Shown piece by piece: positions 24,873 to 62,332 of a stretch of DNA of 64,000 nucleotides. The notes under the pieces are model-generated. The model did not search any database and was not told where the DNA came from. It saw nothing but the letters and a program-made list of their open reading frames with translations. Position numbers and translations under genes: made by a program. Within the stretch, counting starts at the first letter, position 1, and every line of letters starts with the position of its first letter. Source of the DNA: Marinovum algicola (lineage in GTDB: Bacteria; Pseudomonadota; Alphaproteobacteria; Rhodobacterales; Rhodobacteraceae); the NCBI RefSeq assembly GCF_900109145.1, contig NZ_FNYY01000005.1, positions 62,001 through 126,000 on the forward strand, written 5' to 3'.

Positions 24873-25406
24873 CTAGGGGTGGATGTCGCGCGGCGTGCAT
24901 CCCGATTCCAGCACCACCGCGATCCAGTTGACCTCGGGCTCGAGGCCCAACTCGTTCAGCCAGGCCTGTTGCAGCCGATAGGCGGGCAGTTCCTGCGCGC
25001 CGGGGCAATACCAGTGCCGCGCCTCGGCCTGTCGGTGGTGCGCCAACTCATGCAACAGCGTGCTGACGTCAAAGGGATCGCGCGGCGACCAGGGGCGGAT
25101 CAGCCAGATCACCTGCGCCTCGGCATCGTAGAGCCCGCGCAGGGCGGCGTGCCGCGAGGACAGCCCGTCCAGCGCGGCGGCCCGGGCGGCGCTGACAAGC
25201 CGCACGGCGGGCGGCTGGGCACGGCGCGGCAGATCGGAGCGGCGGTCGAGCCAATCGTCGAGATGGGCCACGAGTTCGACCAGCGTCGGCGCGGTGCGCC
25301 AGGCCAGCGGATCGGCCGGTTCGGCAGCAGCGGGCAAGAGGGACAGGATCAGGCATAGGGCGCCTGTGCGTGCCAGCGCAAGGCTGGCCCGGAAAGGGAA
25401 GGTCAT
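24873..25406 (-). CDS. Secreted protein with HELAHH motif (DUF6647-like)
   Basis: 177 residues starting with a signal peptide (MTFPFRASLALARTGALCLI, then LSLLPAAAEPA). About residues 120-130 read LLHELAHHRQ, a zincin-type HExxH motif, followed 15-20 residues later by CPGAQELPAYRLQQAWL, where the glutamate could be a third ligand. It resembles small exported proteins annotated DUF6647 in Rhodobacteraceae. Possible periplasmic metallopeptidase, unproven. In-frame starts further upstream (25586) would remove the signal peptide from the N-terminus and overlap the LysR gene. Confidence 0.65.
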   Translation of the reverse strand: MTFPFRASLALARTGALCLILSLLPAAAEPADPLAWRTAPTLVELVAHLDDWLDRRSDLPRRAQPPAVRLVSAARAAALDGLSSRHAALRGLYDAEAQVIWLIRPWSPRDPFDVSTLLHELAHHRQAEARHWYCPGAQELPAYRLQQAWLNELGLEPEVNWIAVVLESGCTPRDIHP

Positions 25407-25484
25407 CACGTCCTCCGCATCTTGTTTTGTCAGGCTGTGCTTTGATGATACGCTGGGGGCGAGGGATGCCGCAAAAGACGTTTT

Positions 25485-25500
25485 TTCATCCCCGGATGAA
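25485..25500. promoter_or_regulatory. Inverted repeat TTCATCC-CC-GGATGAA
   Basis: 7-bp perfect arms with 2-bp spacer, ending 16 bp before the LysR-type ATG in a divergent gap. Candidate operator or small hairpin in the leader; it does not show the T-N11-A pattern typical of LysR sites. Confidence 0.4.
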
Positions 25501-25515
25501 GGGAATTCATCTGCC

Positions 25516-26427
25516 ATGGGCCGACATTTGCCGCCTTTCGCCGCGGTGCGGGCTTTCGAAGCCGCCGCGCGCCACCGCAGCTTCAAACGCGCCGCCGAGG
25601 AGCTGTGCCTCTCGCCGTCGGCGATCAGCCATCAGATCCGCGCGCTCGAGCAATATCTCGACACCGCGTTGTTCGAGCGGGACGGCAACCGGCTCGAGCT
25701 GACGCTGACCGGGCGCGGCTACGCCGGCAAGCTGACCGGCTTGCTCGACCAGCTCGACGAAAGCACCCGCGCGGTCAGCCAGGCCGGGGCGCGGCCTTTC
25801 CGGGTTCTCTGCACGCCGGGCTTTGCGGCGCGCTGGCTGGTGCCGCGGCTGGACCGGCTGGAATTTGGTGACCGGGTGCGGCTTCGGGTCTCGAGCGGCG
25901 CGCCATCGACCGATTTCGCCGGCAATGACAGCGATGTGGTGATCCAGTGGTCGGTGACGCCGACGGCGGGCGTATCTACCGAGCCCCTGATGGAATCGAG
26001 CCGCTACCCGGTGATAAGCCCCGAGTTGAAACACCGGGCCGCCGTGCACCGGCCCGGTGACCTTCTGCGCCTGCGGCTGATGTACGACGAGACCGACGAT
26101 GCCTGGGGCGAATGGTTCCAGGCCGCTGGCGTGACGCCGGCCGCACTGCCGCAGGGCCCGGTCTTTCCCAATTGCGAGCTGGCAACCACCGCGGCCGAGC
26201 GAGGGCAGGGGGTGTCGCTGGCCTATGATGCGGTGGTGCGGGCCACGCTGGCATCCGGGCGGCTGGTGCGGCTGTTCGAGGCGGTGACCCTGCCGATGGT
26301 AATCTATTCCCTGGCCTATCCCGAGGGGCGGGCCGGCGATCCGATGATCCGCGCCTTTCGCGACTGGATCTTCGCCGAGGTCGCGCGCGAGCAGGTCGGG
26401 GTGCGGGTGGCTTCGGCGCTGGCCTGA
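25516..26427 (+). CDS. LysR family transcriptional regulator (GcvA-like)
   Basis: 303 residues: winged HTH (about 1-60: PPFAAVRAFEAAARHRSFKRAAEELCLSPS in sequence, with ISHQIRALE recognition helix) and a LysR substrate-binding domain (about 90-295). The opening RHLPPFAAVRAFEAAARH and the VLCTPGFAARWLVPRL segment are characteristic of the GcvA subfamily, whose members often regulate amino acid or beta-lactamase genes. Divergent from the secreted HELAHH protein, which may be its target. ATG 25516 chosen by homology of the N-terminus. Confidence 0.88.
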   Translation: MGRHLPPFAAVRAFEAAARHRSFKRAAEELCLSPSAISHQIRALEQYLDTALFERDGNRLELTLTGRGYAGKLTGLLDQLDESTRAVSQAGARPFRVLCTPGFAARWLVPRLDRLEFGDRVRLRVSSGAPSTDFAGNDSDVVIQWSVTPTAGVSTEPLMESSRYPVISPELKHRAAVHRPGDLLRLRLMYDETDDAWGEWFQAAGVTPAALPQGPVFPNCELATTAAERGQGVSLAYDAVVRATLASGRLVRLFEAVTLPMVIYSLAYPEGRAGDPMIRAFRDWIFAEVAREQVGVRVASALA

Positions 26428-26519
26428 GCGCGTCATGCGGCTGCTGCAAAGCGGCATTTCGGCAACGGCGTGCCTGCGCCGCCGCTTCGGGCTTTCCTGG
26501 GGCGGCGACTTGTGCGATG

Positions 26520-26535
26520 TGTTCAGCGTTGAACA
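26520..26535. promoter_or_regulatory. Palindromic operator candidate TGTTCA-N4-TGAACA
   Basis: 6-bp perfect arms separated by GCGT, 18 bp before the ATG of the MarR/EPS-type module. MarR-family dimers bind such short palindromes, commonly over their own promoter, so this is a likely autoregulatory site. It lies where a promoter -10 region or transcript start would be expected. Confidence 0.5.
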
Positions 26536-26552: not shown

Positions 26553-28628
26553 ATGGCCCCGCCCAAAGCCAAACCGATCACCGATGAGGACGGCAATGTC
26601 TTTCGTCTCCTGCGCCAGCTCGATCTGGCGCCGGAGGCGTCGCAGCGGTCGATCGCCGAGGCGCTGGGCCTGTCGCTGGGCACGCTGAACACGCGGCTCA
26701 AATCTGCCGAGGCGGCCGGGTTCATCAAGATCAGCGAACGTTCGGGGCCCGACCGGCGCCAGCGGTTCGCCTATGTGCTGACCCCGCGCGGGGCAGCGGA
26801 AAAGAACCGGCTGACCGAGAGTTTCCTCGCCCGCAAGCTGGCGGAATACGAAGCGCTTCATGCCGAACTGACGGGCACCGCCAGCGGTCTCGTCCCCATC
26901 AAACACAGGACTGAATTGATGCAGAACAACCTGGCTCCGATTTCGGAACTCTATGTCTCTTACGAGAGCGCCCAGAAGCTGAAGGTGGAGGCCGGCAATC
27001 TGGTCAGCCACGATCTCAGCCCGCGCCAGATCTGTGATCTGGAACTTCTGATGAACGGCGGTTTCAACCCGCTCAAGGGGTTTCTGTCGGAAGAGGACTA
27101 CAACGGCGTTGTCGAGAACATGCGCCTGGCCGACGGGTCGCTCTGGCCGATGCCGATCACGCTCGACGTTTCCGAGGAATTCGCCGCCTCGCTCGAGATC
27201 GGCCAGGACATCGCGCTGCGCGATCAGGAAGGCGTGATCCTCGGCACCATGACCGTGACCGACCGCTGGACCCCCGACAAATCGCGCGAGGCGGAAAAGG
27301 TGTTTGGCGCCGATGATGCGGCCCACCCGGCGGTCAACTACCTGCACAACACCGCCGGCAAGGTCTATCTCGGCGGGCCGGTGACCGGTATCCAGCAACC
27401 CGTGCATTATGATTTCCGCGGCCGCCGCGACACGCCGAACGAGCTGCGCGCCCTGTTCCGCAAGCTGGGCTGGCGCAAGGTCGTGGCCTTCCAGACCCGC
27501 AACCCGCTGCACCGCGCCCACCAGGAGCTGACCTTCCGCGCGGCCAAGGAAGCCCAGGCCAACCTGCTGATCCATCCGGTTGTCGGCATGACCAAGCCGG
27601 GCGACGTCGATCACTTCACCCGCGTGCGCTGCTACGAGGCGGTGCTGGACAAGTATCCGCAGTCGACCACCAACATGTCGCTGCTGAACCTGGCGATGCG
27701 CATGGGCGGCCCGCGCGAGGCGGTCTGGCACGGGCTGATCCGCGCCAACCACGGCTGCACCCATTTCATTGTCGGCCGCGACCACGCCGGCCCCGGCAAG
27801 AATTCCCAGGGCGAGGATTTCTACGGGCCTTATGATGCGCAGGATCTGTTCCGCGAGTACCAGAGCGAGATCGGCGTCGAGATGGTCGATTTCAAGCACA
27901 TGGTCTATGTGCAGGAGCGCGCGCAATATGAGCCCGCCGACGAGATCGAGGATCGCGACAATGTCACCATCCTCAACATCTCGGGCACCGAGCTGCGCCG
28001 GCGTCTGCAAGAGGGGCTGGAGATCCCCGAATGGTTCTCGTTCCCCGAGGTGGTGGCCGAGCTGCGCCGCACCCGTCCGCCGCGGGCCAAACAGGGCTTC
28101 ACCGTGTTCTTTACCGGTCTCTCAGGCTCCGGCAAATCGACCATTGCCAACGCGCTGATGGTGAAGCTGATGGAAATGGGCGGCCGCCCGGTGACGCTGC
28201 TCGACGGCGACATCGTGCGCAAGAACCTCAGCTCCGAGCTGGGCTTCTCGAAGGAGCACCGCGACCTCAACATCCGCCGCATCGGTTATGTCGCCAGCGA
28301 GATCACCAAGAACGGCGGTATCGCCATCTGCGCGCCGATCGCGCCTTATGCCACCACCCGCCGTGCCGTGCGCGAGGACGTGGAGCAATTCGGCGCCTTC
28401 ATCGAGGTGCATGTGGCCACCTCGCTCGAGGAATGCGAGCGGCGTGACCGCAAAGGGCTCTACAAGCTGGCGCGGGAAGGTAAGATCAAGGAATTCACCG
28501 GCATCTCCGATCCCTACGACGTGCCGGCGGATCCTGAACTGAGCGTCGAGACCGAGAATGTCGAGGTCGACAACTGCGCGCATCAGGTGATCCTGAAGCT
28601 CGAGAGCATGGGGCTGATCGCCGGCTGA
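26553..28628 (+). CDS. sat-cysC: MarR/EPS-type winged helix joined in frame to bifunctional sulfate adenylyltransferase-APS kinase
   Basis: One open frame of 691 codons with three modules. Residues 1-115 are a winged helix of the EPS-associated MarR type (RLLRQLDLAPEASQRSIAEA, ARKLAEYEALHAEL). Residues 123-520 are sulfate adenylyltransferase (Q314-TRNPLHRAH, GRDHAGPG), and 520-691 APS kinase (P-loop GLSGSGKST at 522-530, LLDGDIVRKNL). The enzyme part makes APS and then PAPS from sulfate. An internal ATG at 26919 (M123), with AGGA 8 bp upstream, would give a normal 569-residue enzyme, so the frame may be read as a fusion, as a separate enzyme, or both. No stop codon or frameshift separates the parts. 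Linking an exopolysaccharide-type regulator to PAPS supply would fit sulfated polysaccharide production; this is inference. Confidence 0.85.
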   Translation: MAPPKAKPITDEDGNVFRLLRQLDLAPEASQRSIAEALGLSLGTLNTRLKSAEAAGFIKISERSGPDRRQRFAYVLTPRGAAEKNRLTESFLARKLAEYEALHAELTGTASGLVPIKHRTELMQNNLAPISELYVSYESAQKLKVEAGNLVSHDLSPRQICDLELLMNGGFNPLKGFLSEEDYNGVVENMRLADGSLWPMPITLDVSEEFAASLEIGQDIALRDQEGVILGTMTVTDRWTPDKSREAEKVFGADDAAHPAVNYLHNTAGKVYLGGPVTGIQQPVHYDFRGRRDTPNELRALFRKLGWRKVVAFQTRNPLHRAHQELTFRAAKEAQANLLIHPVVGMTKPGDVDHFTRVRCYEAVLDKYPQSTTNMSLLNLAMRMGGPREAVWHGLIRANHGCTHFIVGRDHAGPGKNSQGEDFYGPYDAQDLFREYQSEIGVEMVDFKHMVYVQERAQYEPADEIEDRDNVTILNISGTELRRRLQEGLEIPEWFSFPEVVAELRRTRPPRAKQGFTVFFTGLSGSGKSTIANALMVKLMEMGGRPVTLLDGDIVRKNLSSELGFSKEHRDLNIRRIGYVASEITKNGGIAICAPIAPYATTRRAVREDVEQFGAFIEVHVATSLEECERRDRKGLYKLAREGKIKEFTGISDPYDVPADPELSVETENVEVDNCAHQVILKLESMGLIAG
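26907..26921 (+). promoter_or_regulatory. Internal ribosome-binding site and ATG for stand-alone Sat-CysC
   Basis: AGGA (26907-26910) precedes ATG 26919 by 8 bp, and protein sequence conserved among Sat enzymes (NNLAPISELYVSYESA) starts right after this ATG. This suggests that the enzyme can be initiated independently of the winged-helix module. Confidence 0.55.
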
Positions 28629-29769: not shown

Positions 29770-30723
29770 ATGGCGCGGCTTGCGGTCCGGCCCAAAGTCT
29801 GGCCCCAACGCCTGCGGCGCGCGCTGCTTGGCGTCCTGGGGCTGTTTGGCCTCCTGCTGCTGGCGCTGGGGGTGCAGCATCTGCGTCTCTCGGGCGGGCC
29901 GGCGCTGGGCCCACCTGTGCCGGGCGGGCTGCGGCTGGCCACGCACAACGTGCATTACATCGTTACCCGGCGCGACACCGGCCTCTGGTCGCTGGCGGAC
30001 TGGCGCCGGCGCAAGCCGGTTCTGGATGCGACCTTCAAGGCGCTCGCGGCCGATCTGGTGGCCTTTCAGGAAATGGAAAGCTTTGCCGGCGGTTCCGGCA
30101 GCGACGAGAACCTCGCCCGCGACTGGCTGTTGCAGCAGAACCCGGGCTATGCCGCCGCGGCCACCGGGCCCTGGCGGGAATTTCCGCCGACCCAGCCGAT
30201 CCTCTACCGCCGCGCCAGGCTCGAATTGCTGGATCAGGGCTGGTTTTTCTTTTCAGAGACGCCGGAGGTGATTTATTCGCGCACCTTCAATGGCTCCTGG
30301 CCGGCCTTTGCCGCCTGGGCCGAGTTCCGCGACCGTCGGGGCGGCACGGTGTTTCGGGTGTTGAACCTGCATCTGGATTATTCCAGCCTGGACAACCGGC
30401 GCAAATCCGTCGTGCTGATCCGCGCGCGGCTGGCGGACTGGCGGGCGGCGGGCCATTCGATGGTGGTGCTGGGTGATTTCAACGCGCTGGCGGGCTCGGC
30501 GCTGCTGGCGCCGCTGGAGGCGGAGGGGCTGCGGTTCGTGCCGGTGCCGGGGGCGACCTATCACTTCGATCGCGGGCTCAACCTCTTTGGCGCGATCGAT
30601 CATGTCGGGTTGGGGCCGGGGCTGCGCGCGCTGCGCCCGGCGGCGGTGTTTCGCGAGCGGTTGGGGCCGGTCTGGCCGAGCGACCATTACCCGGTGGTGG
30701 TGGATGTGACTTTCGGGGATTAG
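29770..30723 (+). CDS. Endonuclease/exonuclease/phosphatase family protein, membrane-anchored
   Basis: 317 residues. An N-terminal hydrophobic segment (about 18-38, LLGVLGLFGLLLLALGV) serves as anchor or uncleaved signal, placing the catalytic domain in the periplasm. The EEP fold motifs follow: ATHNVHY, AFQEMESF, LNLHLDY, VVLGDFNAL and SDHYPVVVDV, containing the metal and catalytic Asn/Asp/His residues. Substrate may be a nucleic acid, a phosphoinositide-like or another phosphodiester; it cannot be decided here. Confidence 0.85.
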   Translation: MARLAVRPKVWPQRLRRALLGVLGLFGLLLLALGVQHLRLSGGPALGPPVPGGLRLATHNVHYIVTRRDTGLWSLADWRRRKPVLDATFKALAADLVAFQEMESFAGGSGSDENLARDWLLQQNPGYAAAATGPWREFPPTQPILYRRARLELLDQGWFFFSETPEVIYSRTFNGSWPAFAAWAEFRDRRGGTVFRVLNLHLDYSSLDNRRKSVVLIRARLADWRAAGHSMVVLGDFNALAGSALLAPLEAEGLRFVPVPGATYHFDRGLNLFGAIDHVGLGPGLRALRPAAVFRERLGPVWPSDHYPVVVDVTFGD

Positions 30724-61258: not shown

Positions 61259-62332
61259 ATGAAGAGCCCGGCCATGCCCGACGCGACATCCGACACCCCC
61301 CCGACCGACCCGGGCGCCAGGCTTGCGCCGGCGGCGCCGACGCCGCTGGGCATCTACGACCGCAGCCGCGGCCCGCAGGTCACCGGCATCGAGGTGACCG
61401 CCGTGGCGCTGTCGCTGGTCTGGCTGTTGGGGGCGGCGATCTTCTTTGTCGTGCTGGAGCCGTCGAACGGCACCGATGACAGTCTGCGGTTCCTGATGAC
61501 CATGCTGGCGGTGTTCATGCCGGTGGGGATGATCTGGGTCGCCGCCACCGCTGCGCGCGCCTCGCGGGTGATGCGCGAAGAGGCGACGCGGCTTCAGACC
61601 GCCATCGACGCGTTGCGCCATGCCTATGTCAGCCAGAGCCAGGGCGGCGCCTCGGCGACCTCGGTGGGCCGCAAGCTCGACGAGATCGCGGCGGCGCAGC
61701 GCAAGGCCGAGGCGACGCTGGCGATGTTCTCCTCGACCCGCGAGATCGGCAGCCACCGTCCGGCCCAGCCCGGCGCCCGCGCACCCGCCGCGCGGCCGCA
61801 GGGCCAGGCCGACGATCAGCCGGCGCTGGCGCTGGGCACCCCGGCCGAGGCGCTGACGCCCGAGCTGTCGAATGACGATTTCATCCTCGCGCTGAACTTC
61901 CCGGAAACGGCCGAGGACCGCGACGGTTTCTCCGCCCTGCGCCGGGCGCTGAAGCATCGGCCCACCGCGCAGCTGGTGCAGGCGGCGCAGGATGTGCTGA
62001 CCCTGTTGAGCCAGGACGGCATCTACATGGACGACCTGCGCCCCGACATGGCCAAGCCCGACGTCTGGCGCCGTTTTGCCGAGGGCGCCCGCGGCCGCGC
62101 CATCGCCGGGCTGGGCGGCGTGCGCGACCGGTCGTCGCTGGCACTGTCAGCGGGGCGGATGAAGCAGGATCCGATCTTCCGCGACGCGGCGCATCATTTC
62201 CTGCGGGTCTATGACCGGGCGTTCCAGAGCTTTTCCGAACGCGCCTCGGATGCCGAGGTGGCGGCGTTTTCCAACACCCGGACCTCGCGCGCCTTCATGT
62301 TGCTGGGCCGGGTCGCGGGGACGTTCGACTGA
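61259..62332 (+). CDS. Conserved membrane protein with coiled coil, unknown function
   Basis: 357 residues. A Pro-rich N-terminus is followed by two hydrophobic segments (about 44-66, ALSLVWLLGAAIFFVVL, and about 78-100, FLMTMLAVFMPVGMIWVAA), a coiled-coil-like stretch (104-165), a low-complexity Ala/Pro linker and a conserved helical C-terminal domain (about 205-357). Similar hypothetical proteins are common in Rhodobacteraceae. ATG 61259 is an estimate; 61274 is also possible. The last 51 codons are duplicated as a fragment at 62494-62644. Confidence 0.72.
   Translation: MKSPAMPDATSDTPPTDPGARLAPAAPTPLGIYDRSRGPQVTGIEVTAVALSLVWLLGAAIFFVVLEPSNGTDDSLRFLMTMLAVFMPVGMIWVAATAARASRVMREEATRLQTAIDALRHAYVSQSQGGASATSVGRKLDEIAAAQRKAEATLAMFSSTREIGSHRPAQPGARAPAARPQGQADDQPALALGTPAEALTPELSNDDFILALNFPETAEDRDGFSALRRALKHRPTAQLVQAAQDVLTLLSQDGIYMDDLRPDMAKPDVWRRFAEGARGRAIAGLGGVRDRSSLALSAGRMKQDPIFRDAAHHFLRVYDRAFQSFSERASDAEVAAFSNTRTSRAFMLLGRVAGTFD

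Follow-up and report, generated by a model that had tools for sequence, protein, structure and literature searches.

A Sat-CysC Gene of Marinovum algicola with an N-Terminal Winged Helix of MarR_EPS Type and a Conserved Internal Start: A Candidate Two-Product Autoregulatory Locus

Introduction

The trigger enzymes BirA, PutA and NadR combine a metabolic enzyme with a DNA-binding part, and in the accessible text of the papers on them PutA is described as the repressor of the put operon (PMC8249747, PMC6978683). In this work we describe a gene of Marinovum algicola that resembles these enzymes. It occupies positions 26,553–28,628 of the + strand of the window, which is the whole stretch of DNA analysed (64,000 nucleotides (nt); positions 62,001–126,000 of contig NZ_FNYY01000005.1), and its open frame of 691 codons comprises a winged helix, a linker and Sat-CysC, the last being an ATP sulfurylase (Sat) followed by an adenosine 5'-phosphosulfate (APS) kinase (CysC). 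We think, with a probability of about 0.7, that this is a conserved two-product autoregulatory locus, from which a long trigger enzyme and a short enzyme would be made. As in BirA, PutA and NadR, to the extent that the accessible text describes them, a metabolic enzyme and a DNA-binding domain share one polypeptide, although DNA binding is here a prediction. Unlike in those cases, the enzyme is a synthase of 3'-phosphoadenosine 5'-phosphosulfate (PAPS), the DNA-binding domain is a winged helix of MarR_EPS type, and there is a conserved internal start for the enzyme without its DNA-binding part. As for a cognate operator at the target promoter, by which trigger enzymes are recognised, a comparative footprint points to one before this gene.

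The fused gene has other described relatives on both of its sides. Regulators of family TIGR04176 (MarR_EPS) are described as placed in exopolysaccharide gene clusters; their winged helix is homologous to the fused one, and the same operator type stands before the gene. They differ in being stand-alone proteins, with 115–157 bits for the family model against 76–99 bits for the fused domain (two partial matches excluded), and the fused gene lies in another gene neighbourhood. On the enzyme side, the bifunctional Sat/APS kinases of NF004040 (PDB 2gks, 3cr8) are likewise complete Sat-CysC proteins with intact motifs, to which the fused lineages add the N-terminal winged helix. The order of Sat and a C-terminal APS kinase domain is shared with fungal ATP sulfurylase (1i2d, 1m8p); compared with it, the P-loop is intact here, and the fungal chains align without the winged helix. 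According to the accessible parts of the respective papers, the Penicillium ATP sulfurylase is a hexamer under PAPS-mediated allosteric control by its C-terminal domain (PMC4220642), and the Cryptococcus enzyme binds the factor Cys3 through an N-terminal atypical leucine zipper (PMC10359356). The latter ATP sulfurylase thus likewise has an N-terminal arm linked to transcription, but this arm works, as far as that text goes, via a separate transcription factor, unlike the fused gene. A literature search without most subscription journals found no description of a MarR_EPS-Sat-CysC fusion, nor of a PAPS synthase trigger enzyme with a selected internal start, and accounts that list Sat-CysC in Roseobacter-type bacteria do not mention MarR in their accessible text. 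An original prediction made from the letters of the window, which knew of no described protein with this combination, agrees with this outcome.

The Fusion and Its Spread in the Family

The original prediction proposed that a MarR/EPS-like winged helix is joined in frame to a complete Sat-CysC in a frame of 691 codons, and the profile matches bear it out (all features on the + strand). The long product of 691 amino acids (26,553–28,628) contains the MarR_EPS-type winged helix at residues 13–107 (26,589–26,873), which matches TIGR04176 with 87.2 bits in hmmscan and 91.3 bits in the genome search (cut-off 88) and HTH_24 over residues 13–59. It is followed by the linker, residues 108–122 (26,874–26,918), in which the putative ribosome-binding site for the short product is also located. 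The ATP sulfurylase part, residues 123–506 (26,919–28,070), consists of PUA_2 (PF14306) and ATP-sulfurylase (PF01747), and the APS kinase domain (PF01583) covers residues 514–665 (28,092–28,547); these three matches are close to full length, and NF004040 matches residues 121–690 with 1044 bits (cut-off 669). There is no variation in 74 aligned rows at the QTRNPLHRAH, GRDH and P-loop residues (GLSGSGKST, with G522 and S524–T530 invariant), which we take to be the catalytic motifs of Sat-CysC; judging from these matches, the enzyme part is complete and its catalytic motifs are intact. Its best PDB matches are 1i2d and 1m8p, and the matched fungal chains align only from residue 142. The winged helix alone found no match in PDB at an E-value of 0.01 and a single weak one in PHROGs, to a replication initiator.

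The family sample consisted of 295 genomes, two of the genus Marinovum and one from each of the other 293 genera, of which 57 contain the winged helix in frame with a sat frame 690 or more codons in length. G035, with the gene on a contig edge, is a probable 58th, and within the genus the full-length fused frame is present in 4/4 genomes. The 112 fused loci collected gave 105 distinct frames, on which the counts per 105 genes given below are based, and every one of them runs from winged helix to enzyme without a stop codon. In no relative (57 fused genomes, 105 distinct genes) was a stop seen between winged helix and sat, which would have spoken against the original prediction; the TAG inside the match of G239 is by its coordinates the gene's own stop, aligned to residue 690. 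The best 80 loci of a GTDB-wide scan are all fused, which, as they were chosen as best matches, gives no rate. In a class-wide set of 385 genomes, at least five of which belong to the family, G000 and G212 alone have the full fusion, and both are family members. Forty loci, including some chosen because their frame lengths were odd, were hand-picked for closer reading: G169 and G239, both among the 57, are fused, and in the 38 loci without a full match no winged helix was found upstream of sat (1.3–2.7 kb upstream; frames of at least 40 codons; E-value 0.001). A divergent N-terminal fusion was considered for eight genomes with sat frames of about 690 codons (G047, G068, G191, G257, G150, G045, G034 and G021) and rejected, there being no winged-helix match upstream; their extra N-terminal frame resembles, by eye, random GC-rich reading. 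The in-frame fusion is genuine and conserved.

Two observations from this survey stand apart. A record titled Nocardioides marinus (L062) carries a Roseobacter-type fused gene and is probably a mislabelled strain, and in Leisingera aquaemixtae (L059:8991-9086) a second copy of 32 codons from the end part of cysC lies about 1 kb past the intact fused gene.

The Operator before the Long Start

In the window gene, the palindrome TGTTCAGCGTTGAACA (26,520–26,535; consensus TG-YGTTCA-N4-TGAACA-CA) is located 17 nt before the long start. That the motif TGTTCA-N4-TGAACA is relevant, as had been suspected, is supported by its retention before the long start in nearly all fused genes. Within 320 nt upstream of codon 17 it is present at 0–2 mismatches in 104 of the 105 and at four mismatches in the remaining one, whereas letter-shuffled upstream copies reach two mismatches or fewer in 12/2,100; with Y/R ends and a limit of 160 nt from codon 17, the site is found at no more than one mismatch in 104/105. 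The long start, read as the first ATG after the site, is ATG in 92 genes, TTG in 7 and GTG in 5, with none in one, and it lies 15–20 nt past the operator in 76/105. At 26,492–26,496 (+), CTTTC stands in the place of a conserved CTTT(G/C) box 24–28 nt before the operator, whose columns in 104 fused loci are C 77%, T 95%, T 92% and T 75%, then G 47% or C 30%. This box is probably part of a −35 element, so that the operator would cover the promoter core.

The unfused sat genes differ in this respect. In the 400 nt upstream of them the best match has two mismatches in 1/38 and three to five in 37/38, hence none at 0–1 mismatch, and of 30 unfused genomes 14 have a site anywhere but none has it at sat (coordinates checked by hand). 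In these comparisons, operator and fusion co-occur. Two operator-like sites are present in 23/104 fused loci (L016, L079, L091, L093, L095, L097 and others); in the two-site loci that were printed, the second site is TGTTCT-N4-TGAACA, about 30 nt before the main one.

The Internal Start

The ATG at 26,919, together with AGGA, had been put forward as a possible start for the enzyme alone, and the codon counts favour it. This ATG is codon 123, in frame, and is separated by a spacer of 8 nt from AGGA (26,907–26,910, +), the putative internal Shine-Dalgarno sequence, which is formed by the codon of Arg119 and the first base of codon 120. From it, a short product of 569 amino acids, Sat-CysC alone (26,919–28,628, +), would be made. 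Arg119 is encoded by AGG in 105/105 fused genes, in comparison with 10/3,975 at 38 other conserved arginine positions, and codon 120 begins with A in every one of the 105, thus AGGA is invariant. Codon 123 is ATG in 98 genes and GTG in 7; since GTG makes up 1,859 of the 4,690 valine codons in the 105 genes, finding it in 7/7 is unlikely by chance. Nearby synonymous sites are free to vary, e.g., Pro115, for which four codons are used. By these counts, a ribosome site and a start codon inside the coding frame are under selection. The start of unfused orthologues lies at roughly this position, so the internal start looks like the old start of the enzyme, still in use.

Selection was also estimated by the ratio of nonsynonymous to synonymous substitution rates (dN/dS), as medians of 400 random pairs from which undefined or saturated values were excluded (105 for the winged helix, 79 for the linker, 45 and 9 for the two Sat parts, 20 for CysC). 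The medians are 0.138 for the winged helix, 0.353 for the linker, 0.085 and 0.073 for Sat and 0.046 for CysC, and on this measure the winged helix is under selection. The original prediction had regarded the linker as mere former intergenic sequence, and fusion and internal start as an either/or; this part is not supported. Both are conserved together, which suggests two products.

It could still be argued that the short enzyme alone is of importance and that the long form is a by-product of a stop codon lost behind a regulator gene, with the winged helix cleaved off or separate. The strong conservation of the internal start and the linker, which is the least constrained part of the protein, would be compatible with this. 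Nevertheless, we consider it unlikely: neither a stop nor a frame break separates helix and sat in the fused genomes and genes surveyed, 0/38 unfused loci have a separate winged-helix gene close upstream of sat, and a neutral stop loss would hardly persist over about 56 genera.

The Reader of the Operator and Its Targets

A genome-wide search with the strict pattern covered 30 of the 57 fused genomes and gave 47 sites, 29 of them at the fused gene (one per genome), and 17/30 genomes have the strict site there only. Of the 18 sites elsewhere, one belongs to the stand-alone MarR_EPS gene of G220. When the surroundings of the other 17 were compared, only two groups of homologous loci recurred, with the sites inside conserved reading frames: one in three genera (G195, G055, G206; L339, L347, L349), where the frame has about 150 codons, and one in G259 and G085. 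No winged helix of the MarR_EPS kind was found near these 17 sites among frames of at least 70 codons. At the strict pattern, no second target is common to more than 3/30 fused genomes. Next to the site frame of L339, L347 and L349 is a gene that shares 34% identity with a monooxygenase-like frame in L164.

Of the three strict sites in the genome of the window, one precedes the fused gene, another precedes a stand-alone MarR_EPS gene on C12, and the third is on C54. Within the genus, strict sites of two genomes (G000 C54 and G003 C12:398702; L162:5614 and L164:6003) lie in homologous clusters with ATP-binding cassette transporter genes, near which gentisate-dioxygenase-like and IclR-like genes (names by reading) are found. 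These sites probably belong to another regulator.

The stand-alone MarR_EPS genes offer a comparison for the fused helix. From 45 places listed, 30 were read as loci (L242–L249, L313–L334), and in 26/30 a palindrome of YGYTC-N6-GARCR type precedes the gene's own start: 13 are exact YGTTCAN4TGAACR, 4 have one mismatch and 9 are YGCTC-N6-GAGCR, a form defined after it had been seen, whereas 4 have neither, including L246, which is probably wrongly anchored. Shuffled 200-nt stretches of these loci contain such a site in 2/1,500. At the position of residue 46, compared by eye, Asn goes with GTTC in 10 loci and a mixed form in 1, and His with GCTC in 9, GTTC in 3 and mixed or one-mismatch forms in 3. 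In most cases, then, the form of the palindrome as read here follows the recognition-helix residue, Asn or His. The fused proteins have Asn46 in 105/105, and their sites are GTTC. No stand-alone MarR_EPS was found in 49/57 fused genomes, with up to 15 candidates scored per genome, or in 27/31 where all candidates were scored, so that the fused helix would be the likeliest reader of the operator.

A different role was envisaged in the original prediction, namely that the fused protein regulates genes of exopolysaccharide synthesis or sulfation, coupled to PAPS supply. The metabolic setting has room for it. The genome of the window has one Sat and a single PF01507 protein, which is a CysH bearing CC...CxxC; PF01507 also covers CysD, hence no CysD was found. 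A CysH with CC..CxxC is presumably of the APS-reducing type, so that by family knowledge sulfur reduction does not require the PAPS made by CysC, and this PAPS would serve sulfation. Rhodobacterales lack CysN/CysD, and the fungal ATP sulfurylase is related to theirs, according to the accessible text of Patron et al. 2008 (PMC2275785). In addition, the winged-helix family is named for exopolysaccharide genes, the stand-alone MarR_EPS of G220 adjoins glycosyltransferase-, polysaccharide-export- and sugar-transferase-like frames (by reading), and 18/47 strict sites are away from the fused gene. However, the strict site is confined to the fused gene in more than half of the fused genomes searched, and the other sites recur only in the two groups (3 and 2 genomes) inside conserved frames. 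Sulfotransferases show no association with the fusion: PF13469 is present in 28/31 fused and 27/29 unfused genomes and absent from that of the window, and PF03567 in 60/60. There is no exopolysaccharide cluster at the fused gene either, its neighbours being the AsnC, TrxB, PurE and PurK genes. Thus, this part of the original prediction is not sustained, and we regard such a role as improbable.

Still less probable is a winged helix that has lost its DNA binding and acts as an oligomerisation or partner-binding arm. The leucine zipper of the Cryptococcus enzyme indicates, in the accessible text (PMC10359356), that regulatory arms without DNA binding exist on ATP sulfurylase; against this, S41, L42, G43, N46, D67 and R69 are identical in 105/105 fused proteins, and the operator travels with the domain. 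A sequencing or assembly error that deleted a stop codon can be dismissed, since the same frame is found in 4/4 genomes of the genus and in 105 distinct genes.

The Locus and Its History

The gene sits in a trxB-sat-purEK neighbourhood. Among 14-kb loci, AsnC and TrxB homologues occur in 71/72 fused and 20/20 unfused ones, and PurE and PurK in 47/72 and 13/20 (eight of the 80 fused loci were too short and excluded; gene order was viewed in unfused rows only). Given these common neighbours, the fused and unfused genes are one locus, with or without the module. The window also has genes here that other fused loci rarely share: at 24,873–26,427, between trxB and the fused gene, there are an open reading frame on the − strand and a LysR-like gene (name by reading), each matched in 1/72 other fused loci, and at 29,770–30,723, between an Hsp20-like gene and purE, an endonuclease/exonuclease/phosphatase-like frame (name by reading), also matched in 1/72.

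When the fusion state is mapped onto a five-protein tree of 92 loci, 15 changes are required, and well-supported branches force at least 10 of these; with shuffled labels the mean is 18.3 changes, and as few as 15 are reached in 10/500. The tree of Sat only (150 rows) is poorly resolved and takes 31 changes, at least 5 of them forced, with a shuffled mean of 37.6. A single clade of fused genes was looked for and seen on neither tree. We read the scatter as one gain with many losses, or as exchange of the locus, because the junction, the operator and the ribosome site are alike throughout.

Proposed Mechanism

In our opinion, a conserved two-product autoregulatory locus accounts best for these data. 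At the promoter of the gene, the TGTTCA-N4-TGAACA palindrome would be recognised by the winged helix of the long protein, and the bound long protein would hold down transcription of the gene that yields both products. The enzyme part of the long protein would make APS and PAPS, and ribosomes starting at the internal AGGA...ATG would make the plain enzyme off the same messenger RNA. Only part of the Sat-CysC oligomer would then bear DNA-binding arms, with most of the enzyme in these mixed oligomers being the short product, and a ligand-driven change of the oligomer might move the winged helices on or off the DNA. DNA binding by the long form, repression and mixed oligomers are the steps that we infer.

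Several points weigh against this proposal. The fusion is patchy, with its 15 state changes on the five-gene tree, and therefore the winged-helix module is, by its distribution, dispensable, and its history is unclear. Recurrent sites exist elsewhere in a few genomes, and 8/57 fused genomes, that of the window included, have a stand-alone MarR_EPS able to share the site. One fused gene of the 105 (L023) lacks the site at one mismatch, and G084 has no strict site at its fused gene. Moreover, that the ligand state of the enzyme part (APS, PAPS or ATP) would set the occupancy of the operator is a step taken over by analogy from the fungal enzyme.

A more specific form of the two-product proposal is offered tentatively, at somewhat less than even odds. 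Here, the PAPS synthase would sense its own product or substrate in the APS kinase domain and repress one main target, its own gene, via the winged helix, while the selected internal start would set the share of subunits with a DNA-binding arm. If so, a product-sensing regulator would lie within the single ATP sulfurylase that was found in the cell, and repeated loss of the module would come easily, as the enzyme retains a start of its own.

Conclusions

Sulfur assimilation and sulfation both begin with the activation of sulfate. The site before the stand-alone MarR_EPS genes gives the MarR_EPS family a testable DNA target, and the double layer of an operator and a selected internal ribosome site is testable within one gene. 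The design of an enzyme that also acts on DNA is known for biotin, proline and NAD, and for sulfur none was found in our searches. If the proposal is right, sulfate activation in Roseobacter-type bacteria would be controlled by an enzyme that recognises the promoter of its own gene.
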